Assembly: GCA_020846005.1 (NCBI GenBank)
Contig: JADLEQ010000054.1
Location: 1-64,000, forward strand
DNA length: 64,000 nt
Reading direction: 5' to 3'
Origin: Polyangiaceae bacterium
GTDB taxonomy: Bacteria; Myxococcota_A; Polyangia; Polyangiales; Polyangiaceae
The notes under the pieces were generated by a model. That model saw nothing but the letters and a program-made list of their open reading frames with translations, had not been told where the DNA came from and did no database searches. Made by a program: the position numbers and the translations under genes. This document shows positions 39,696 through 53,260 of the stretch, one piece after another (position 1 is the stretch's first letter; every line of letters begins with the position of its first letter).

Positions 39696-42614
39696 TCAGC
39701 GGAACTCGATCTGATCGAAGTAGCCGACGGCGTACGCCGAGTATTGGTAGAGATCCATCCGGCCCAGTGCGCTGCCCGTGCCGATGAAGCTGAGGGCGAC
39801 GCCCTTCACGGAGCCGTCGACGTAGTAGTCGAAGGTGCGGGTCGTCCAGTTGATGTTGCGGAGCTCGATGTGGTACCAGGTGTTCGCCGAGTAGGCTTGG
39901 CTCACCGCGGTGCCCGCCGAGAGCGTCATCGCGCCGCTCGACGAGAAGTAGTGGGAGAAGAGCGCGTTGGACGCCGATGACGTCGGGTACATCGCCACAT
40001 AGTTGGCGGTGTAGGTCGCCTGCCCCGGCCTCGACCACCAGGAGATGCTGTTCGGTTGGAGCGAGGCGAACGTCCGGTAGATGCCGTCGTTCGAGCTCGA
40101 GGTGGTGCTCTTGGCGAGGTAGAGCGAGTAGAGCGAGCTGGCCGCGGACTGCGCGGTCGTCACCGTCCGTGAAGAGTAGCTCCCTCCGCCCGTCGTCCAG
40201 CCCGTGTAGTTGCCGTCCTCGAAATCCTCGGAGAACAGGATCGGCGTGCACGCGCCGGCCACGCACCACTGCGGCGAGCAGTTCGTGCTCGTGCCGGTGT
40301 AGCCGGAGCCGGTGGTGTTGCACGTCGTCGCCGAGTTTCCGTCGCACGCCGGCTGGTTCGGAGCGCAGACCTGCGGCTGGCAGGTCGAGACGCCGTCCGC
40401 GCAGTACTCCGACGACGAGCAGGTGTCGTACAGCGTGCTGGAGAGGCCGTTCGTGGAGCAGCGCTGGACGTTCCCCCCCTGGCAGAAGTACGCGCTCGGC
40501 GTGCACACCGGAGTCTGGCACGACCCGAGGTAGCAGACCTGACTCGTCGTCGCGCAGTCCGTCCCCCCCGTGACGTAGCCGGAGCCGTCCGTGTTGCAGG
40601 TCGTCGCGCGTGTGCCGTCGCACACCGCCGCGCCCGGCGTGCAGATCTGAGCGTTGCACGTCGAGTCGTTCGCCGCGCAATATTCGGTGGCCGTGCAGTT
40701 GTCGTACAACGTGCTGGAGAGGCCGTTCGAGGCGCACAGGTAGACGTCGCCGTCCTGGCAGAAGTAGGAGCTCGCCGTGCAGACGGGCGTGTAGCAGGCG
40801 CCCTGCCAGCACACCTTGCTGTTCGCGGCGCAGTTGGTGCCGCCCGTCGAGTAGCCTGAGCCCTCGGCGTTGCAGGTGGTCGCGCGGTTCACGTCACACA
40901 GCGCGGCGCCCGGTGTACAGATCTGGGCGTTGCACGTGGAGTCGCCTGCCGTGCAGTACTCGGTGGCGGTGCAGTCGTCGTAGAGGGAGCTGGAGAGGCC
41001 GTTGGCGGAGCAGCGAAATACGTCCCCCGACTGGCAGAAGTAGCTGTTGGCGGTGCAGATCGGCGTCTGGCAGACGCCGCCGCTGCACACCTGGCCGCTG
41101 GCGGCGCAGTCGGTGCCGCCGCTGAGATACCCGGAGCCGTCGGCGTTGCAGGTGGCCGCCGTCGTCCCCGAGCAGGCGGGCTGACCCTGGACACACACGT
41201 CCGTCCTGCACGTCGAGAAGCCCGGGGAGCAGTGCTCGCTGGAGAGGCAGGTGTCCGCGAGCGTCGTGGTCTGGCCGGACGCCGCGCACAGACGGACGTT
41301 GCCGCCCTCGCACACGTACGTGTTCGGGACGCAGGCGAGCGACTGGCACGCGCCCTGCCAGCAGATCTCGCCGCTCGCGGTGCAGTCCACCGGGTCCGGC
41401 AGCCAGCCGGCGCCGTTGGAGTCGCACGTCTGGAGCAGGTCGCCCACGCACTGCTGCGAGTCCGGTGTGCACTGCTGCGGGAGGCACGTCGTCGTCGCGT
41501 CGTCGCAGTAGCCGGGGGAGAACCCGACCCAGGCGCAGTCGTCGACGTGGACCTCGGCGTCGCCCTTCGGGCTGCACTCGACGACCGCGTTCGCGTCGCA
41601 GCGGCGGGCGGCCGGCGTGCAGACGACCGCCGCGCAGGCCCCGGCCACGCACACCTCGCCCGTGGTCGCGCAGTCCTGGACGATGCTCGACGAGAGGCCG
41701 TCTGCAGAGCACTCCCGGCGCTGCTCCGTGCCTGGCTCGCACGTCACCCCCCCGGGCGCGCAGACGTGGTTCTGACAACCGGCGATCGACGCCGTCCCCA
41801 CGCACGTCTGCCCAGAGCCGCACTGGACGGGCGCGCCCCACCCGGTCCCATGCTCGTCGCAGGTGGCCACGGCGTTCTGCTGGCAGCGCGAGCTGCCGCC
41901 CGTGCACGCGTCGGCCTCGCACGAGCCGCCGGCGCAGTGGCGGTCCGTCGCGCAGTCCGAGTGCCCGAGGCACTCCACGCAGGCGCCCTCACCGAGGTCG
42001 CAGAGCAGGCCGAGCGGCGTGCAGTCGTTGTCGGAGTCACAGGCGGGAGTGCACGCGCTGGCGCGGCACTTCGCCTCCGTGCCGCAGTCGCCGTCGACGA
42101 CGCACTCGACGCAGCGCTGCGTGGAGGTGTTGCAGACCTTGCCCGTAGGGCAGTCGAGGGATGAAACGCACACCTCGGCGGGCACGCAGCGTCGCGTCGC
42201 GTCGCAGTCGTTGCCGGGCGCGCAGTCGGCCGAGAGCACGCACTCCACGCACTGGCCTGCCACCGTGTCGCAGACGCCGTTCGTCCCGCCGTCCACGCAG
42301 TCGAGGCTCGTGGTGCAGCCCGGCGGCGCGACGCACTCGTGAGCCTCGCAGGAATGCCCCGCGGCGCAGTCCTCCGCGGTCACGCAGGCGACGCAGACGC
42401 CCGCGGCGGTGTCGCACACGCCGACGTCGCAGTCGGCGTTTCGCGCGCACGCGGCGGCGTCCGCCCCGCCGCCGCCCCCGGATCCCCCCGACCCGCCCCC
42501 GGAGTCGGGGCCTCCGTCCGTCGCAGGCCGCCCGGTGCTGCCCTTCGAGTCGCTCCCGCAGGCCACCGCGAGCGCGACCCACGCCAAGACACCAAACTTA
42601 CGCCAGACCATCAT
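39696..42614 (-). CDS. Large surface lipoprotein of Cys-rich tandem repeats with C-terminal jelly-roll-like domain
   Basis: 972 residues from the ATG at 42614, with GGGAGTGG as ribosome site eight bases before. Lipobox ALAVACGSD gives a lipid anchor. After a Gly linker come many short Cys modules (CxxDxDC...GxCVEC type), then four 92-residue units with a fixed Cys pattern, each containing SYFCQ..GDV..C..NGLSS and TTCN.DGSGY. The last ~185 residues start with FSEDFEDGNYTGW and look like a concanavalin/LamG-like sandwich, a carbohydrate- or protein-binding fold. No catalytic residues seen. It faces away from the 3D-domain gene's end (same strand, 73 bases). Confidence 0.85.
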   Translation of the reverse strand: MMVWRKFGVLAWVALAVACGSDSKGSTGRPATDGGPDSGGGSGGSGGGGGADAAACARNADCDVGVCDTAAGVCVACVTAEDCAAGHSCEAHECVAPPGCTTSLDCVDGGTNGVCDTVAGQCVECVLSADCAPGNDCDATRRCVPAEVCVSSLDCPTGKVCNTSTQRCVECVVDGDCGTEAKCRASACTPACDSDNDCTPLGLLCDLGEGACVECLGHSDCATDRHCAGGSCEADACTGGSSRCQQNAVATCDEHGTGWGAPVQCGSGQTCVGTASIAGCQNHVCAPGGVTCEPGTEQRRECSADGLSSSIVQDCATTGEVCVAGACAAVVCTPAARRCDANAVVECSPKGDAEVHVDDCAWVGFSPGYCDDATTTCLPQQCTPDSQQCVGDLLQTCDSNGAGWLPDPVDCTASGEICWQGACQSLACVPNTYVCEGGNVRLCAASGQTTTLADTCLSSEHCSPGFSTCRTDVCVQGQPACSGTTAATCNADGSGYLSGGTDCAASGQVCSGGVCQTPICTANSYFCQSGDVFRCSANGLSSSLYDDCTATEYCTAGDSTCNAQICTPGAALCDVNRATTCNAEGSGYSTGGTNCAANSKVCWQGACYTPVCTASSYFCQDGDVYLCASNGLSSTLYDNCTATEYCAANDSTCNAQICTPGAAVCDGTRATTCNTDGSGYVTGGTDCATTSQVCYLGSCQTPVCTPSAYFCQGGNVQRCSTNGLSSTLYDTCSSSEYCADGVSTCQPQVCAPNQPACDGNSATTCNTTGSGYTGTSTNCSPQWCVAGACTPILFSEDFEDGNYTGWTTGGGSYSSRTVTTAQSAASSLYSLYLAKSTTSSSNDGIYRTFASLQPNSISWWSRPGQATYTANYVAMYPTSSASNALFSHYFSSSGAMTLSAGTAVSQAYSANTWYHIELRNINWTTRTFDYYVDGSVKGVALSFIGTGSALGRMDLYQYSAYAVGYFDQIEFR
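40235..41340 (-). repeat. Four tandem 276-bp units within the Cys-repeat gene
   Basis: The DNA repeats with a 276-bp (92-residue) period. The two middle units are closest to each other, and the outer ones more diverged. All keep phase and Cys positions. Boundaries are approximate because units were aligned by eye at the protein level. Confidence 0.75.
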
Positions 42615-44183: not shown

Positions 44184-45089
44184 TCAGCTCAGCTCGAACG
44201 CCAGCGAGAACGCGCCGGAGACGGCCGTGGAGTAGTTGTCGACGCCGAGGTAGTAGGTCGTCCCCGCCGTCACCGCGATCGTCAGCACGACGACATCCCC
44301 TACGCTGATCCCGCGCTCGCAGTCGGCGGGCGAAGCCAGCGCGCACGTGTCCGCCGAGTAGTAGAGCGCGAGGCTCGTGCCCGTCGGCGTACCGGTGATG
44401 GTGAGCGTTCCGGTCGTGGGCGCCACGAAGCGGTACACGACGTCTCGGCCGCCGCCGTTCGGGCTGCACGCCCACGGCTCGTAGTCGGCGCCCATCCCGC
44501 TCGTCGATCCGTTCACGGTGGTGACCGCGCCGGCGAGCACGAGCGGCTCGCCCGGGCAGGTGTCCAGCGAGTCCGCGCCCGCCGAGCCGCCGCTGCCCCC
44601 CGACGCAGCGCCTCCCGACGCAGCGCCCCCCGACGCAGCGCCCCCCGACGCAGCGCCTCCCGACGCAGCGCCCCCCGACGCTGACGGGCAGTCGCACGGC
44701 TCGTACCCACTGCCGTCCGGCTTGCACGCTTGCGCGCCCTGCGCCCCGCCCGGGCACGCGCAGGCGACCTGGGCGCCCGGGACGCAGAACGCCGAGCTCC
44801 CGCCCGCGCCGCCTCCGCTCGGCGCGCCGCCGCCGGAGCCGCCGCCTCCCGGGCCGGCGCCGGAGCTGCCGCCGCTCGAACCTCCCCCGACGACACCGCC
44901 CCCCGAACCGCCGCCGGAGCTGCCCCCGCTCGCGCCGCCACCGCTTCCGCCCCCGCCGAAGGTTCCGCCACCGGCCTCGACGCCCGAGTCGGTGACCGCC
45001 GAGGTCCGATCGAGATCGTCGACCACCGCGCAGCCGGCCACCGCGCCGCACGCCGCGGAGAACCAAGCGAGCGCCGAGCCTCGGGCCAT
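44184..45089 (-). CDS. Lipoprotein with Gly/Ser linkers and PPC-like C-terminal domain
   Basis: 301 residues from an ATG at 45089 (an ATG at 45104 is possible). Signal ends AVAGC, a lipobox. Two long Gly/Ser/Ala linkers flank a small Cys module (FCVPGAQVACACPGG, CKPDGSGYEPCDC). The second linker is encoded by a 15-bp tandem repeat. The last ~115 residues (VVYRFVAPTTGTLTITGTPTG, YYLGVDNYST) resemble a bacterial pre-peptidase C-terminal (PPC) beta domain. It would be an outer-surface protein. It is divergent from the kinase-AAA-TPR gene. Confidence 0.75.
   Translation of the reverse strand: MARGSALAWFSAACGAVAGCAVVDDLDRTSAVTDSGVEAGGGTFGGGGSGGGASGGSSGGGSGGGVVGGGSSGGSSGAGPGGGGSGGGAPSGGGAGGSSAFCVPGAQVACACPGGAQGAQACKPDGSGYEPCDCPSASGGAASGGAASGGAASGGAASGGAASGGSGGSAGADSLDTCPGEPLVLAGAVTTVNGSTSGMGADYEPWACSPNGGGRDVVYRFVAPTTGTLTITGTPTGTSLALYYSADTCALASPADCERGISVGDVVVLTIAVTAGTTYYLGVDNYSTAVSGAFSLAFELS
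44596..44685 (-). repeat. Six 15-bp units encoding Ser-Gly-Gly-Ala-Ala linker
   Basis: Units on the plus strand read CCCCCCGACGCAGCG with single C/T changes; the sixth is diverged at its end. They encode ASGGA on the minus strand. Near identity suggests recent expansion. Confidence 0.85.
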
Positions 45090-45198: not shown

Positions 45199-48100
45199 AT
45201 GAACCAACCGGGGCCGAAGCGCGGGCGCCGTCAGGCGCCACCCGCCAGCGGGGAGGCGCCCGCGACGCGACGCACTGTCGAGCGGGACGTCCGCACCGCC
45301 ACCTCGCCCGGCCACGCCGCGGCGGAGCCGGCCCCGGTCGCCGCCCCGAGCCGGGGCCTGTCCGCTCCCACGCCCGTGGTGCCGGCGTCGCCCTGGCTCG
45401 ACGCTTCGCCGGTCGAGGAGCCCGAGGAGCCCGCGCCGGAGAGCGCCCCGCCGAGCATCCCGTCCGCCGCCACGGCGAGCCTCGCCGGCGCGGCGGGCGG
45501 AGAAGACGCGCCGATCCAGCCCGGAGACTCCGACCCGGAGCCGAGCGAGCCGCCGACCGTCCAGGCCGGCGCGCCGCGCGCGCGCATCCTCCCCGGGCAC
45601 GTCATCGCGGGCCGCTATGAGGTGCTGCGCACGCTGGGAGAGGGGGGCATGGGGATCGTCTACCGCTGCCGCGACCTCGCGACCGGCGCGGACGTGGCGC
45701 TGAAGCGCGTGATCCCACCCGAGGGCAAGCTCGCTGGCGAGTACGTGATGTGGTTCTACAAGGAGGCGCGCGCGCTCGCGGCCCTCGACCACCCCGCGAT
45801 CGTCGGCGCGCGCGACTTCGGGCAGCTCACGGACGGCACGCCGTACCTGGCGATGGAGCTCGCCCCCGGCGCGTCGCTCCACGATCTCGGCGCGGTGCGG
45901 CTCTCGTACCCGATCCTCTGGGAGATCGTGGATCAGATCCTGGGAGCGCTCGCGCACGCCCACGCGCGCGGTGTGGTCCACGGCGATCTCAAGCCGTCCA
46001 ACGTCCTCGTCGAGGAGCGGCACGGGGCGCCGCCCGTGGCGCGGATCCTGGATTTTGGCCTCGCGTGGCTGAAGCGTGACCGCCACGACGAGCGGCTCGA
46101 CGGCTCGAAGGCCATGGAGTTCGCGCCGCACGCGGGCGCCGGGACACCCGGGTACATGGCGCCCGAGCAGATCCAGCACGAGAGCCACCACGTCGCGGGG
46201 CCGACGGATCTCTACGCCCTCGGCTGCATCCTCTACAAGCTGCTCACCGGGCAGGCCCCCTTCAGCGGCGACGCCAAGGAGCTCCTGCGCAAGCACGCCT
46301 TCGACAAGGTCGCCGAACCCAACCTGGTGGTGGCGACGCCGCCCGGGGTGGACCGCTTCCTCCTTCGCCTGCTCGCGCGCCGCCCGTGGGATCGCTGGGA
46401 GTTCGCCGGCAACGCGCGCGACGACTGGCGCGCGTTCCGCCCCCAGGAGGTCGACACGATCGCCTGGCGGTTCCCGACGCTGCCGCGCGGCGCCACGATC
46501 CCGCCGCCCGCCGCGCCGCAGGCGACGGGCGACTCCGACTCGCCGTCGCCTGCGGCCGACCGCGCGCCGGGGCTGCTGAGCATCCGAGAGAGCCCGCTGG
46601 TCGGTCGCGCCGACATCCGGCGCGTGCTGCTCGAGATCTGCCAGGAGGCGATCGAGGCGCGCGGCATGCCCCACCGCCTCGTGCTCCTCGTCGGGCAGGC
46701 GGGCGTCGGGAAGTCGCGCATCGCGGAGTGGCTCTGCGAGACGATGCACGAGCGGGGCACCATGGTGCCGCTCCGGGCGCGCTACCGGCCGATGCGGGCG
46801 GCGCTCGACGGCATGCTCGGGGCGGTCGTGCAGCACTACGGGTTCGAGCGAGCCGATCGCGACACCATCGAGAAGTCGCTCATGGCCCGGTGGCGCGTGG
46901 CGAAGGACGACAAGAACGGCTGCGCCTGGGTGGCCGGTGCGTCCGAGTGGATCCGGCCGATGCCGCCGGGCGAGCAGCACCGCCTCGGCCCGACGGGCAT
47001 CCGCTTCACGCTCGACTCCCTGGAGACCCGGCGGATGGTCATCCGCTACACGCTCCGCAAGATCGCGCACGGGCGCCCGCTCCTCTTCTGGCTCGACGAC
47101 CTGCATCACGGCACGGCCGGCACCTTCGAGGGGCTGAAGCGCATCCACGACGAGGAGCCCGATCAGCGCATCGTGATGGTGGCCACCGTCCGCGCCGAGG
47201 ACGTACAGATCGGCACCACCGCGGCCGATCGCCTCCGGGAGCTCCGCGAGCGGCTGGACGGAGTCGTGCTGGACGTGCAGTCGATGGACTCGGAGGCCAC
47301 GGCCGCCCTGGTGCGCGCGTCCCTCCCGCTCGACGACGCCGCGGTCGGCGAGGCGGTGCGTCGCAGCCGCGGCAACCCGCTGTTCGCGCTCCAGCAGCTG
47401 CACGCGTGGGCGCTCGCCGGCGACATCCGCCTCGAGGGCGGCGTCTACCGTGTGCCGGCGGACGTGCTCGCGCTCCGTCCGCAGACGACCGCCGAGCTGT
47501 GGGACGGCCGCGTCGCGGCGCTCCCGCCCGAGCATCGGATCGCCGCCCACGCCGCCGCCGCGCTCGGAGGCGACATGCGCCGGCAGGTCCTCGCCGCGCT
47601 CCTCGGCGAGCTCGGCGTCCCGCGCGGCGCGCTGGTGAGCCTGCAGAGCGCCGAGATCCTGCTCCCACGGGGGCCCGAGCGCTTCGGCTGGCCGCACGCC
47701 CTCTTGCAGGAGCACCTGTTTGCCCAGCTCGTGGCGCGCGAGGATGCTCCGCGGATCTTCGAGGCCGCGGCCGACGCGCTGCTGCACCACCCGCTCGCCA
47801 ACACGCGCCGGGTCGTCCGCCAGCGGGTGCAGAGCTTGCTCTCGGCCGGGCAGGCGGAGCGGGCGGCGACCGTCCTCTTCACGCACCTGGAGGAGGCGTG
47901 GAACGGCGCGCGGGAGCCGAACGCCTCCCTCGCGGACCTCGATCTACTGAAGGGCCGCGTCGAGGGCCCCCTCCTGGCGCTGAAGCACCGCTGGCAGGCC
48001 GAGTCGCTCCGGCACCTCGGGCGGACGGACGACGCCATCACCCACGCCGAGATCGCGCGTGCCAGCTTCGAGGAGCTCGGCGAGGCCGAGGAGCTGGCGC

Positions 48101-49044
48101 ACTGCCTCCGGCTCCTCGGGCACCTGTCCAGCGAGAAGGGGCAGAGCGTCGAGGGGCTGGAGATGGTGCGACAGGCGCGCTCGCTGTTCGAGGCGGCGGG
48201 CAACGCGCTCGGCCAGGCGCAGTGCGGCGCGGTGGAGGGCGAGATCCAGTACCTGCTCGGGCACCACGAACGGGCGCGCGAGGTCATCGAGGCCGGCGCC
48301 GCGCACTTCGCGCAGCTCGACCAGCCGCTCGGTCGCGGCCAGTGCCTGCTCCTGCTCTCGTGGATCGACCACGCCGAGGGGGCGATCGCGCTCGCGCGCC
48401 GCAGGACGGCCGCGTCGCGCGCGGAGTTCGAGCGCGCCGGCTACCGGCTCGGGCTCGCGCAGGCGGACGCCTCGGCGGCCCACCTCGAGCACCGACTGCA
48501 GAACTACAACAGCGCGGAGCGCGGAGCCTGCGAGGCGCTCGCGGCCTTCGAGTCGCTCCGCACGCCGCGGGGCCACGCCGCGTGCGAGCGCCTGCTCGCC
48601 ATGATCGCGCTCGACACAGACGATCTCGACGCCGCCGAGCTCCACGCGCGACGAGCGCTCGAGGTGTTCGCCGGCATGGGCGATCCGTGGGGGATCGTCG
48701 AGGCGAGGATCCTGCTCGCCCAGATCGCGCTGGCTCGGCGTGACGTGCCTGGCGCCGAGGCCGCGCTCCGCGAAGCGCAGGCGCTCGACGTGCAGGAGGT
48801 CGAGCCGCGCCAACACCTGCTCGTGACGCGGGCCTGGCTCCAGCACGCGGCGGGCGATTCGGACGCCGCCCTCGAGTCACTCGAGGCCGCGAGCGACGTG
48901 TTCGACGAGCGGACGCGCGTCGGTGACCACGTCCCGCACCTCCTCGATCGCTTGTCCCGCCTCGCCTGGCCGGCCCACGTCGCGAGCCGCATCGACGCCT
49001 GGCGGACGCTCCTGCACGACCGGTCTCGCCGCAACAGCGAGTGA
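45199..49044 (+). CDS. Ser/Thr kinase fused to AAA ATPase and TPR domain
   Basis: 1281 residues. A disordered Pro/Ala N-terminus (~1-135) precedes a kinase domain (~138-420) with TLGEGGMGIVYRC, Lys in VALKRV, HGDLKPSN and DFGLAW. In the catalytic loop Arg of HRD is Gly262, but Asp263 is kept, a change that occurs in some active kinases. Residues ~480-780 are a STAND/AAA-like ATPase with Walker A LVGQAGVGKS (~500) and Walker B LLFWLDDLHH. The remaining ~450 residues are TPR hairpins (LRHLGRTDDAITHAEIAR, ALGQAQCGAVEGEIQYLLG). This is the kinase-STAND-TPR layout typical of myxobacteria and PknK-like proteins. No membrane segment. It likely integrates a ligand signal to phosphorylation. Confidence 0.92.
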   Translation: MNQPGPKRGRRQAPPASGEAPATRRTVERDVRTATSPGHAAAEPAPVAAPSRGLSAPTPVVPASPWLDASPVEEPEEPAPESAPPSIPSAATASLAGAAGGEDAPIQPGDSDPEPSEPPTVQAGAPRARILPGHVIAGRYEVLRTLGEGGMGIVYRCRDLATGADVALKRVIPPEGKLAGEYVMWFYKEARALAALDHPAIVGARDFGQLTDGTPYLAMELAPGASLHDLGAVRLSYPILWEIVDQILGALAHAHARGVVHGDLKPSNVLVEERHGAPPVARILDFGLAWLKRDRHDERLDGSKAMEFAPHAGAGTPGYMAPEQIQHESHHVAGPTDLYALGCILYKLLTGQAPFSGDAKELLRKHAFDKVAEPNLVVATPPGVDRFLLRLLARRPWDRWEFAGNARDDWRAFRPQEVDTIAWRFPTLPRGATIPPPAAPQATGDSDSPSPAADRAPGLLSIRESPLVGRADIRRVLLEICQEAIEARGMPHRLVLLVGQAGVGKSRIAEWLCETMHERGTMVPLRARYRPMRAALDGMLGAVVQHYGFERADRDTIEKSLMARWRVAKDDKNGCAWVAGASEWIRPMPPGEQHRLGPTGIRFTLDSLETRRMVIRYTLRKIAHGRPLLFWLDDLHHGTAGTFEGLKRIHDEEPDQRIVMVATVRAEDVQIGTTAADRLRELRERLDGVVLDVQSMDSEATAALVRASLPLDDAAVGEAVRRSRGNPLFALQQLHAWALAGDIRLEGGVYRVPADVLALRPQTTAELWDGRVAALPPEHRIAAHAAAALGGDMRRQVLAALLGELGVPRGALVSLQSAEILLPRGPERFGWPHALLQEHLFAQLVAREDAPRIFEAAADALLHHPLANTRRVVRQRVQSLLSAGQAERAATVLFTHLEEAWNGAREPNASLADLDLLKGRVEGPLLALKHRWQAESLRHLGRTDDAITHAEIARASFEELGEAEELAHCLRLLGHLSSEKGQSVEGLEMVRQARSLFEAAGNALGQAQCGAVEGEIQYLLGHHERAREVIEAGAAHFAQLDQPLGRGQCLLLLSWIDHAEGAIALARRRTAASRAEFERAGYRLGLAQADASAAHLEHRLQNYNSAERGACEALAAFESLRTPRGHAACERLLAMIALDTDDLDAAELHARRALEVFAGMGDPWGIVEARILLAQIALARRDVPGAEAALREAQALDVQEVEPRQHLLVTRAWLQHAAGDSDAALESLEAASDVFDERTRVGDHVPHLLDRLSRLAWPAHVASRIDAWRTLLHDRSRRNSE

Positions 49045-49150: not shown

Positions 49151-50428
49151 ATGTCCGACCCCGTCAGCCAGGAGCTCTTCGCCCGCGCGCAGCGGGTCCT
49201 CCCCGGAGGGGTGAACAGCCCCGTCCGCGCCTTCCGAGCCGTTGGCGGCGAGCCCGTCTTCATCACGCGCGCGCGCGGGTCACGGATCTACGGGGCCGAC
49301 GGCGCCGAGTATGTCGACTACGTCGGCTCGTGGGGCCCCGCGATCCTGGGCCACGCGGAGCCGGAGGTCGTCGAGGTGGTCCGCCGCACGGCGCTCGACG
49401 GCCTGTCGTTCGGAGCGCCGACGGAGCTCGAGGTCCGGTTCGCCGAGGCCGTGCGCGAGCGCGTGCCCTCGCTCGAGCTACAGCGGTGCACGTCGAGCGG
49501 CACCGAGGCGACCATGTCGGCGCTCCGCGTCGCGCGCGGCGCGACGGGGCGCGACCTCGTGGTCAAGATGGAGGGCTGCTACCACGGTCACGCCGATGCG
49601 CTGCTGGTCAAGGCGGGGAGCGGCCTCGCGACCTTCGGGACGCCGGACTCCGCCGGCGTGCCGCCGGGCGCCGCCGAGTCGACGCTCGTCCTGCCGTACA
49701 ACGATCTCGCGGCGCTCGAGGCGGCGTTCGATCGCGTAGGGGAGCGGATCGCGGCGGTGATCCTCGAGCCCGTCGCCGGGAACATGGGGTGCGTGCCGCC
49801 CGAGCCCGGCTACCTCCCCGGCGTGGTCGAGCTGTGCGCCCGGCACGGCGCGATCTCGATCTTCGATGAGGTGATGACCGGCCTGCGCGTCGCCCCGGGC
49901 GGAGCCCAGGAGCGCTACGGAGTGACGCCGCGCCTCACGTGCCTCGGGAAGATCGTCGGCGGAGGGATGCCGCTCGCGATCTACGGCGGCGCCTCCGAGG
50001 TGATGCGGCACATCTCGCCGCTCGGTCGCGTCTACCAGGCGGGCACGTTGAGCGGGAACCCGCTCGCGGTCGCAGCCGGGCTCGCCACGCTCGAACGCCT
50101 CGTGCCCGCGGTCTACGAGCGGCTCGAGGCGACCTCCGCGGCGCTCGGCGACGGGCTCGCCTCGCTCCTCCGCGAGCGCGGGGTGGCCGGCGTCGTCCAG
50201 CGTGTGGGCTCGATGCTCACGCTGTTCTTCACCGAGCGCCCCGTGCGATCGTGGTCCGACGCCGCGGGGTGCGACACGGAGCGCTTCGCGCGCTTTCACC
50301 GTGGCCTGCTGGCGCGCGGTGTCTACTGGCCCCCGTCCCAGTTCGAGGCCGCGTTCGTCTCCGCCGCACACGAGCCAGCGGATCTCGATCGGACGCTCAG
50401 CGCCGCACGAGACGCGCTCGTGAGCTGA
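49151..50428 (+). CDS. hemL: Glutamate-1-semialdehyde 2,1-aminomutase
   Basis: 425 residues, the family size. PGGVNSPVRAF at the N-terminus, SSGTEATMSALRVARG and the PLP lysine Lys267 in CLGKIVGGGMPLAIYGG are diagnostic of HemL rather than other class III aminotransferases. It converts glutamate-1-semialdehyde to 5-aminolevulinate, the C5 route to tetrapyrroles. hemA is not adjacent. It converges on the repeat-peptide gene, with a weak hairpin between. Confidence 0.96.
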   Translation: MSDPVSQELFARAQRVLPGGVNSPVRAFRAVGGEPVFITRARGSRIYGADGAEYVDYVGSWGPAILGHAEPEVVEVVRRTALDGLSFGAPTELEVRFAEAVRERVPSLELQRCTSSGTEATMSALRVARGATGRDLVVKMEGCYHGHADALLVKAGSGLATFGTPDSAGVPPGAAESTLVLPYNDLAALEAAFDRVGERIAAVILEPVAGNMGCVPPEPGYLPGVVELCARHGAISIFDEVMTGLRVAPGGAQERYGVTPRLTCLGKIVGGGMPLAIYGGASEVMRHISPLGRVYQAGTLSGNPLAVAAGLATLERLVPAVYERLEATSAALGDGLASLLRERGVAGVVQRVGSMLTLFFTERPVRSWSDAAGCDTERFARFHRGLLARGVYWPPSQFEAAFVSAAHEPADLDRTLSAARDALVS

Positions 50429-50494: not shown

Positions 50495-50800
50495 CTACCA
50501 GGAGCCGTGGCTGCCGTGCGAGCCGTGGCTGCCGTGCGAGCCGTGGCTGCCGTGCGAGCCGTGGCTGCCGTGCGAGCCGTGGCTGCCGTGCGAGCCGTGG
50601 CTGCCGTGCGAGCCGTGGCTGCCGTGCGAGCCGTGCGAGCAGTGCTGTGCCGGGATGACCCCGCCACCGTCACCTTCGATCGGCTGATCGCAGTTGTCGC
50701 GCGCCTTGTCGATGACGGCGTCTTCTGTCTTGCTCAGCATCCCACGCGCGCTGCGGGAGAAAGACGGAAGCTTGCCGGGGGTTGAGTCCTTGGGGGGCAC
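50495..50800 (-). CDS. Short protein ending in fifteen Ser-His-Gly repeats and Trp; putative modified or metal-binding peptide
   Basis: 101 residues from a GTG at 50800; an ATG at 50740 would give 81 residues with a ~60-base leader from the predicted start of transcription, and is an equally serious choice. The N-terminal part is charged (KTEDAVIDKARDNC), then GDGGGVIPAQHC, then Ser-His-Gly fifteen times, then Ser-Trp. Read in another register it is His-Gly-Ser, the His-Xaa-Ser pattern of HxsA-type repeat proteins, which are modified by radical SAM maturases. No maturase is nearby. The 15 His and two Cys could instead bind Ni, Zn, Cu or Co. The plus-strand reading (AAVRAV repeats) is less protein-like. 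Function inferred only. Confidence 0.6.
   Translation of the reverse strand: MPPKDSTPGKLPSFSRSARGMLSKTEDAVIDKARDNCDQPIEGDGGGVIPAQHCSHGSHGSHGSHGSHGSHGSHGSHGSHGSHGSHGSHGSHGSHGSHGSW
50504..50638 (-). repeat. 18-bp tandem repeat encoding (Ser-His-Gly)2
   Basis: On the plus strand the unit GCCGTGGCTGCCGTGCGA occurs seven times without a change, followed by one half unit (135 bases). Ser codons alternate AGC and TCG, so the DNA period is twice the peptide period. Complete identity points to recent expansion or conversion. Confidence 0.95.
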
Positions 50801-51181
50801 GGAGTGAGGATACCAGGCAGGCACCCGCCGGTCCACGGAATTTCCGTAGGCGCCCCATCGCGAGCCGACCCGGTGCCGGTGACGGCCGGCTCCACGCGTC
50901 GCCGGCCCGGTCGCGTCAGCGGCTCCGCGCGCGGGGTGTGTGCTCGCAGGGCTCACGGCTCACCGCAACCGCCAGGCCACACGATGGCGCGCCGCGTCGC
51001 ACCGCGCGCCCGAGCGCACCCCAGGGCGCATGTGCCTGGAATTCCGCGAGATCCCGGCGCAGCGCGGCGGCCACGCGTCGCGGCTCGCGCCGCGGCCGCG
51101 CGCGCCGCGCCGTCTCGCGTCGCCGCGCGCTGCCACCGAGTGCCACGTGCGCTGCTGCCCACGCCCGGGCGGCGCCGCCGC
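50801..51181 (-). promoter_or_regulatory. 381-base non-coding gap holding the promoter and a dyad of the repeat-peptide gene
   Basis: On the minus strand TGGACC (50830-50835), a 17-base spacer and TATCCT (50807-50812) preceded by TG-G form a fair extended -10 promoter. A perfect 13-base dyad ACGGAA-A-TTCCGT (50835-50847) abuts the -35. Transcription would begin near 50800. The remaining ~330 bases have no convincing gene on either strand and no tRNA-like structure. Confidence 0.5.
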
Positions 51182-53260
51182 TCAGGCCCGCGCCAGGTGC
51201 TCGAGCGCCGCGACCGCGCCGCACGTCGCGCGAACGTCGCGCAGCAGGCGGAGCCGGTTGTCGCGGACGCGAGCGTCCTCGACCATGACGAAGACGTCGG
51301 TGAAGAACCGCGCCAGGGCCGGCGCGAGCTCCGCCAGCGCGGCGACGGCGCCGGCGTAGTCCCGGGCGGCGGAGCGCTCGAGGACGCGCGACCGCGTCGC
51401 GGCGTGCGCCGCGAAGAGCGCGCGCTCCGACGCGTGCGCCTCGCCGAGCGTGCCGGGCTCCACGGCCTCACCGTCCGGCGCGTCCCGCGCGATGTTCGCT
51501 GCGCGCTTGAGGACCTCGCCCACGGTGGAGCGCGTGTCGGCGTCGAGCGAGGCCAGGGCCGCCGCGCGGAGCTCGCAGTCGTAGGGATCGTCGGCGGCCA
51601 CCGCGAGGCTCGCCTGCACCGCGTCGGCGGGCCAGCGGGCCTCGAGCACGCCGCGGAGCCGCTCGCGGAAGAACGGCGCGAGCCGGTTCCCCGTCTCGGC
51701 GGCGTCGTGATCGAGCGCCACGCCCCCGTACCCGGCGTGGGCGAGCGCGGCCGCCGAGGCGAGCGAGAGCCCCCACCCGTGCGCGAGGAGCGTGCGCAGC
51801 GCGCCGAGCGCCGCGCGCCGGAGCGCGAGCGGGTCGGCGGCGCCCGTCGGCGCGAGGCCGATCGCGAAGCACCCGGCGAGGGTGTCGAGGCGGTCGGCGA
51901 GCGCGATCAGCGCGCCGCTCGGGGACGACGCCGGGGAGTCCTCGGCACCGCGGGGGCGGTAGTGCTCCTCGATGGCGAGCCCGACCTCCGCAGGCTCGCC
52001 GTGGGCGAGCGCGTACGCGCGGCCCATCTCGCCCTGCAGCTCGGGCAGCTCGCCGACCATGGCCGTCACCAGATCGCACTTGGCGAGCGCCGCCGCGCGC
52101 AGCGCCGCCGCCGTCTGCGCGGCGGGCAGCCCGAGCGCCGCCCCGAGCTCGCCGACCAGCCGCTCGATCCGGCGGACCTTGTCGCCCACGGAGCCCAGTC
52201 GCTTCTGGAACGTCATCCCTTCGAGCTTCGGGCGGCGGCTCTCGAGCGGCGCCGCGCGATCCAGATCCCAGAAGAAGCGGGCGTCGGAGAGGCGCGCGCG
52301 CATCACGCGGTCGTTCCCGCGCTGGACGTTCGGCGGGTTCTCGGCCGTGTTGACCACGGCGAGGTAGCGAGGCAGCAGGCGACCGCCGGCGCCGCGCACT
52401 CCAAAATAGCGCTGGTGGCCCTTCGCCACCTCGAGGATCACCCGCTCGGGGAGCTCGAGGAAGCGCTCATCGAAGGAGCCGACGACCACGCACGGGTCCT
52501 CCACCAGCGACAGGTTCTCGCCGACGAGGAAGTCATCGTCGACCAGCTCCCCGCCGAGCGCGCGGGCCGCGTCGCGCAGCCTCGCCACCATGACCTCTCC
52601 GCGCTCCGAGGTCCTCGCGAGCACGTGCCGCGCGCGGAGGAGCTCAGGGTACGTCGCGGCGGACTCGACCGCGACCGCCTCGGGGGCGCGGAAGCGATGC
52701 CCGCGGGTCGTCGTGCCGGAGCGCACGCCGCCGTACGCGAAGTCGATGGCGTCCGCGCCGAGGAGCGCGAGCAGCCACCGGATCGGGCGCCCGAACGTCG
52801 CGTCGCCGGCGCCCCACCGCATCGCCTTGCGGAACGGCACGGCCGCGACCACCCGCTCGAGCGCCGCGGGCAGCACCGCGGCCGAGGCCGCGCCTCGCGC
52901 GACCTTCCGCGCCGACACGTATTCACCCTTCGGGGTCTCGACGCGCCGGAGCGCGCCCGGCTCTACGCCGAGCTTCTCGGCGAACGCGAGCGCGGCGCGG
53001 GTCGGGGCGCCCGAGGCGTCGAACGCGACCCGCGCCGGGGGGCCGACCACGTCCTCGTCCACGTCCGGCTGCGCGGTGGCGACCCCGGCGACCGTGGCGG
53101 CGAGGCGCCTGGGCGTGCCGAAGACCTCGATCGCGCCGTGGGCGAGCCGCGCGCCAGCGAGCTCGGCGGTGAGGAGTCCGGGCAAGGCGTCGAGCGCGCC
53201 GGCCACGAAGCTGGCCGGCAGCTCCTCGACGCCGATCTCGAGGAGGAGGTCGGCCGTCAT
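51182..53260 (-). CDS. glyS: Glycyl-tRNA synthetase beta subunit
   Basis: 692 residues, normal size. It starts LLLEIGVEELPASFV and has GTPRRLA, RPIRWLLALLG, GHRFRAP, ILEVAKGHQRYFGV and GNDRVMRARLSDARFFWDLD, all typical of GlyS. The C-terminal part contains the HD-like region and anticodon-binding domain (FFTDVFVMVEDARVRDNRLRLL). It works as an alpha2beta2 enzyme with GlyQ, whose gene normally lies directly upstream but is not found here, so glyQ must be elsewhere. It is divergent from yacG. Confidence 0.97.
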   Translation of the reverse strand: MTADLLLEIGVEELPASFVAGALDALPGLLTAELAGARLAHGAIEVFGTPRRLAATVAGVATAQPDVDEDVVGPPARVAFDASGAPTRAALAFAEKLGVEPGALRRVETPKGEYVSARKVARGAASAAVLPAALERVVAAVPFRKAMRWGAGDATFGRPIRWLLALLGADAIDFAYGGVRSGTTTRGHRFRAPEAVAVESAATYPELLRARHVLARTSERGEVMVARLRDAARALGGELVDDDFLVGENLSLVEDPCVVVGSFDERFLELPERVILEVAKGHQRYFGVRGAGGRLLPRYLAVVNTAENPPNVQRGNDRVMRARLSDARFFWDLDRAAPLESRRPKLEGMTFQKRLGSVGDKVRRIERLVGELGAALGLPAAQTAAALRAAALAKCDLVTAMVGELPELQGEMGRAYALAHGEPAEVGLAIEEHYRPRGAEDSPASSPSGALIALADRLDTLAGCFAIGLAPTGAADPLALRRAALGALRTLLAHGWGLSLASAAALAHAGYGGVALDHDAAETGNRLAPFFRERLRGVLEARWPADAVQASLAVAADDPYDCELRAAALASLDADTRSTVGEVLKRAANIARDAPDGEAVEPGTLGEAHASERALFAAHAATRSRVLERSAARDYAGAVAALAELAPALARFFTDVFVMVEDARVRDNRLRLLRDVRATCGAVAALEHLARA

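Follow-up and report, generated by a model that had tools for sequence, protein, structure and literature searches.

An HxsA4-Type His-Xaa-Ser Repeat Peptide Encoded Apart from Its Probable Radical SAM Maturases in a Polyangiaceae Genome

Results

Assignment of the Peptide to the HxsA4 Family

The window (the whole stretch of DNA analysed, 64,000 nucleotides) carries on its minus strand a gene for a member of the already catalogued HxsA4 family, which is separated from its probable maturases rather than lone. The peptide is very probably a His-Xaa-Ser RiPP-like precursor of the HxsA4 type that is modified in trans by Hxs enzymes encoded elsewhere. A preliminary description had proposed a RiPP precursor modified in trans, and at the level of gene content this is supported by the HxsB, HxsD, and HxsC-like genes found elsewhere in the genome and by the co-occurrence of A4 and HxsB. 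The earlier observation is real and was correctly read in outline, and the word orphan should be dropped.

Against the NCBIfam profile HxsA4 (NF038313), the peptide scores 96.3 bits (cut-off 55, E 1.4e-27) over profile positions 1-93 of 93, which places the resemblance to His-Xaa-Ser repeat proteins seen before above a curated cut-off. The family is defined by a leader, a QHC motif, and His-Xaa-Ser repeats up to the C terminus, together with HxsB in the same genome; the peptide has each of these parts, including the SHG repeats and the terminal SW, and the genome holds two HxsB copies above the cut-off. The usual but non-defining trait, a gene adjoining HxsB, is absent here; the gene lies beside hemL and glyS, away from HxsB, and the maturase genes are on other contigs. 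HxsA2 (NF038296) also has His-Xaa-Ser repeats, but the peptide reaches only 29 bits against it (cut-off 48). A search of the genome for further HxsA4 copies gave weak, unconvincing matches only, and pattern searches around the HxsB and HxsD loci, as well as within those weak hits, revealed no convincing further His-Xaa-Ser precursor.

A scan of named genomes for the leader gave matches in Polyangiaceae and other Myxococcota, including the cultured species Polyangium fumosum DSM 14668 and Minicystis rosea DSM 24000. In P. fumosum, the genes for A4, HxsB, and HxsD are found together. HxsA4 is above the cut-off in 50 of the 145 genomes of the order and in 88 of the 284 genomes across the phylum.

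The hxsA4 Gene and Its Surroundings

The minus-strand translation ends in VIPAQHC(SHG)15SW, followed by the stop codon at 50495-50497, so the fifteen perfect Ser-His-Gly units described earlier are confirmed, and the coordinates given for them are exact with the GTG start (Table 1). The description of the peptide as (Ser-His-Gly)15-Trp is right in the number of units and wrong in its direct Trp end, since the actual end is Ser-Trp. The His-Xaa-Ser register begins at QHC-S and runs through the fifteen units to this Ser-Trp. At 50502-50635, Tandem Repeats Finder gives 7.4 copies of an 18-bp unit with 100% matches, in agreement with the claim of a DNA repeat without a single change; each 18 bp encodes a pair of SHG units, identical except that TCG and AGC alternate as the Ser codon. 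The frame is open back to a GTG at 50956. We place the start at 50798-50800 because the peptide VPPK..LP[ST]F (GTG-CC.-CC.-AAG, then LP[ST]F) is common to seven genomes and the similarity among the relatives fades just upstream of this GTG; an alternative internal start, the ATG at 50738-50740, would give 81 aa. In the alignment of 14 relatives, the invariant leader positions are P11, G19, E25, A32, and A50-Q51-H52-C53-S54-H55. The preliminary description had made its reading depend on homologues with a conserved N-terminal part, and the leader is indeed conserved in relatives.

Table 1. Coordinates of the hxsA4 gene, its parts, and its neighbors in the window.
Feature	Position	Strand	Basis or remark
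hxsA4 CDS, 101 aa	50495..50800	minus	GTG start 50798-50800, stop 50495-50497; translation and NF038313 profile match
Leader-like part MPPKDSTPGKLPSFSRSARGMLSKTEDAVIDKARDNCDQPIEGDGGGVIPAQHC	50639..50800	minus	Alignment of 14 relatives
(Ser-His-Gly)15 array	50504..50638	minus	Perfect 18-bp DNA period
C-terminal Ser-Trp	50498..50503	minus	In nearly all relatives; Gln-Trp in few arrays
hemL-like class-III aminotransferase (glutamate-1-semialdehyde aminomutase by sequence)	49151..50428	plus	Pfam Aminotran_3
glyS, glycyl-tRNA synthetase beta subunit, upstream of hxsA4	51182..53260	minus	Pfam tRNA_synt_2f
Ser/Thr kinase-AAA-TPR protein, syntenic neighbor only	45199..49044	plus	

The hemL-like neighbor is found at the A4 locus in five other genomes and glyS in six, and the arrangement hemL/A4/glyS or a subset of it, with a pyruvate phosphate dikinase gene inserted, recurs in G000, G111, G038, G047, G055, G083, G061, and G124. 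The position beside hemL, pointed out before, is inherited; no functional link between hxsA4 and hemL was found, and nothing points to a role in haem synthesis. The window also contains a 15-bp tandem repeat at 44595-44681 (5.8 copies, 94% matches) and, inside a long frame, a 276-bp tandem repeat at 40299-41153 (3.1 copies, 76% matches).

Selection on the Repeat Array

We compared 55 distinct arrays of related Myxococcota, comprising 745 units, of which 737 read SHG. The remaining eight (five SHA and three SHS) are all the first unit of their array and still read His-Xaa-Ser. The arrays use all six Ser codons, both His codons, and all four Gly codons, and when unit types are compared with the most frequent unit of their array, 299 codon differences are synonymous and 8 nonsynonymous, against an expectation of ~23% synonymous for random single changes; the relatives behind these counts share kinship, so that a P value drawn from them is overstated, and the direction is not in doubt. 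Relatives conserve both the leader and the QHC-(SHG)n-SW part at the C terminus, and both are under strong purifying selection. The number of units, whose comparison between strains had been suggested, is 15 here and ranges in relatives from 6 in the same-genus G111 up to 52 in G065, and the array length appears free to change while the peptide unit is held. We infer that the perfect DNA repeat of this genome reflects recent homogenization and is not the cause of the peptide sequence. The gene of G065 (L036:1429-2124) has its 52 SHG units unbroken, and that of G071 (L039) has 41. One genome carries a tandem pair of HxsA4 genes (L067:1700-2678 and L071:9120-9770).

Hxs Genes Elsewhere in the Genome

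The assembly has 5.7 Mb in 119 contigs. No HxsB or HxsC profile match lies on the 118-kb contig of hxsA4, so the statement that no maturase is near is correct for this contig; it fails genome-wide, where two HxsB, HxsD, and HxsC-like genes are present. The previously proposed search for HxsB/HxsC-type genes returned two HxsB genes with intact reading frames, scoring 534 bits on contig C55 and 531 bits on contig C35 (cut-off 370), and HxsC-like genes below the cut-off. On C55, a 299-aa HxsC-like radical SAM gene precedes HxsB. Contig C91 has an Hxs operon without HxsB. It starts with a ClpB-like ATPase and a short protein whose N terminus looks, by eye, twin-arginine-like (RRSF), continues with an HxsC-like radical SAM enzyme and a MopE-motif protein, and ends with HxsD and an HxsD-like protein, which score 59.2 and 65 bits against cut-offs of 50 and 41, respectively. 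Comparable gene orders in the relatives G087, G131, and G137 continue with HxsB, which in G087 and G131 is followed by A4. At L133:3511-10480, an Hxs operon without HxsB has genes for the ClpB-like ATPase, HxsC-like radical SAM enzyme, MopE-motif protein, HxsD, and HxsD-like protein; a methyltransferase-like frame and a further radical SAM frame come after it.

No full HxsC was found in the genome above the cut-off of 267.9 bits (best 89 bits), and no full HxsC4 above that of 500 bits (best 124 bits in the whole-genome search and 142 bits for a called protein). Because neither HxsC nor HxsC4 exceeds its curated cut-off, the gene set falls short of a complete, textbook HxsABCD or HxsA4-B-C4 system. 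The HxsABCD system (profiles TIGR03978, TIGR03977, and TIGR03976) comprises the radical SAM maturases HxsB and HxsC together with HxsD (Haft and Basu, as cited in PMC9062424). The genome resembles it in having HxsB and HxsD above the cut-off, but the genes are scattered over at least four contigs and the HxsC-like enzymes fall below the HxsC and HxsC4 cut-offs. The genome appears to hold most of an Hxs system, in pieces.

An AlphaFold model of HxsD from a relative has a pLDDT of about 92-95 for residues 11-80 and an alpha/beta sandwich-like order of elements. Among the PDB matches listed, Rpb11-like RNA polymerase subunits rank best, with E over 0.001 and Z under 8; no PqqD-like RiPP recognition element appears in the list, and no clear structural relative was found.

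Co-Occurrence and Separation of A4 and HxsB

Both A4 and HxsB are present in 47 of the order's 145 genomes; 3 have A4 only, 9 HxsB only, and 86 neither. HxsB thus accompanies HxsA4 in 47 of 50 genomes (Fisher p ~3e-25, uncorrected for relatedness). The corresponding numbers for A4 and HxsC4 are 40, 10, 3, and 92. Of the 47 genomes with both genes, 27 have A4 no more than 10 kb from HxsB, and 20 (19 of the 46 other than the present one) have the two apart. The 20 include good assemblies, such as G055 with 5 contigs and G083, where the two genes are 209 kb apart on one contig, so the separation is recurrent and not an assembly effect alone. HxsD mostly stands directly before HxsB in the genomes examined.

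Two Types of HxsB

In the tree, the C35 HxsB clusters (support 100/97) with the HxsB of G111, G038, G124, and G061, four genomes in which A4 likewise has the hemL or glyS gene as its neighbor. Because of this grouping with relatives that share the A4 locus, the C35 copy is the more likely candidate for acting on A4 here; the C55 copy has a long branch and an uncertain place in the tree.

The most notable side result is the repeated loss of SPASM cysteines in HxsB. Three SPASM positions (columns 462, 480, and 554 of the alignment) are affected: among the 55 aligned HxsB, 33 have no Cys at the last of them, a loss that is mostly joined by that of one or both others. Another four cysteines of the SPASM domain persist in nearly all 55, and the tree requires at least three changes in the SPASM cysteine state. 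This genome has one form each with and without the three cysteines (L047:9123-10616 and L048:9003-10580, aligned with 53 further HxsB). The idea that the C35 HxsB is a degenerate copy, its SPASM cysteines being missing, was ruled out, since 33 of the 55 miss at least one, other Hxs types included. By the anSME arrangement, we take the lost cysteines to be the AuxI ligands and the kept ones to be those of AuxII. In SuiB, according to a review (PMC9012708), AuxI is the acceptor of the substrate electron, and an HxsB without AuxI would therefore have to work differently; by this analogy, a different way of working is a lead, not a result.

Discussion

The N-terminal leader, with its segments LPSF..ARGMLS.tE....KA and VIPAQHC, would be recognized by Hxs proteins after translation. 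A radical SAM enzyme HxsB, most likely the C35 copy, would then generate a 5'-deoxyadenosyl radical and introduce many modifications along the His-Xaa-Ser core, to which HxsD and the HxsC-like radical SAM enzymes of C91 and C55 probably contribute. Their action in trans would follow from the dispersal of the system over the chromosome in this lineage. It is a rather doubtful extension of this scheme that, in such a scattered system, an HxsB without the putative AuxI ligands, lost independently in several lineages, modifies every (Ser-His-Gly)n unit in trans and so makes a repetitive modified-histidine polymer.

Fifteen closely spaced His together with Cys would bind Zn, Ni, or Cu, and the Hxs operons of this genome and its relatives encode a protein with MopE-like putative metal-binding motifs. 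Both points would suit an unmodified peptide acting as a histidine-rich metal buffer or metallochaperone, with the co-occurrence of HxsB as ancestral baggage. However, the strict Ser-His-Gly unit, with its fixed Ser and Gly and the C-terminal Trp, exceeds the exactness that metal binding needs, A4 and HxsB co-occur tightly, and a non-exhaustive look at the neighbors of hxsA4 recognized no metal transporter or regulator; we consider this function unlikely. A two-stage scheme, in which the repeat, once modified by radical SAM chemistry, would serve as a polymer that binds metal or a cofactor, refines the preferred reading of a precursor modified in trans and unites the Hxs gene set, the His-rich core, and the MopE-motif partner; we regard it as a tentative possibility.

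The gene could also have stayed at its locus after maturation was lost in this genome, as the missing HxsC4, present in the same-genus G111, and the place of HxsB outside the HxsD operon of C91 might indicate. Such decay is very unlikely with an intact and uniform array, a conserved leader, and two intact HxsB frames, and nine other A4 genomes are also without HxsC4 above the cut-off. Other frames across the repeat are also open, as they might be if a GC-rich tandem repeat were open on the minus strand by chance and no gene existed; with the curated family match, the conserved leader and start, and the synonymous-only variation between genomes, this is extremely improbable, and comparison with relatives refutes it.

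The Hxs system is known as a family but is biochemically uncharacterized. The literature searched on Hxs chemistry contains passing mentions only, and the product of His-Xaa-Ser systems is apparently undescribed there. HxsA4 is common in Myxococcota and cultured hosts exist, which opens Hxs chemistry to experiment, and an Hxs precursor without a neighboring maturase should not be dismissed as an orphan.
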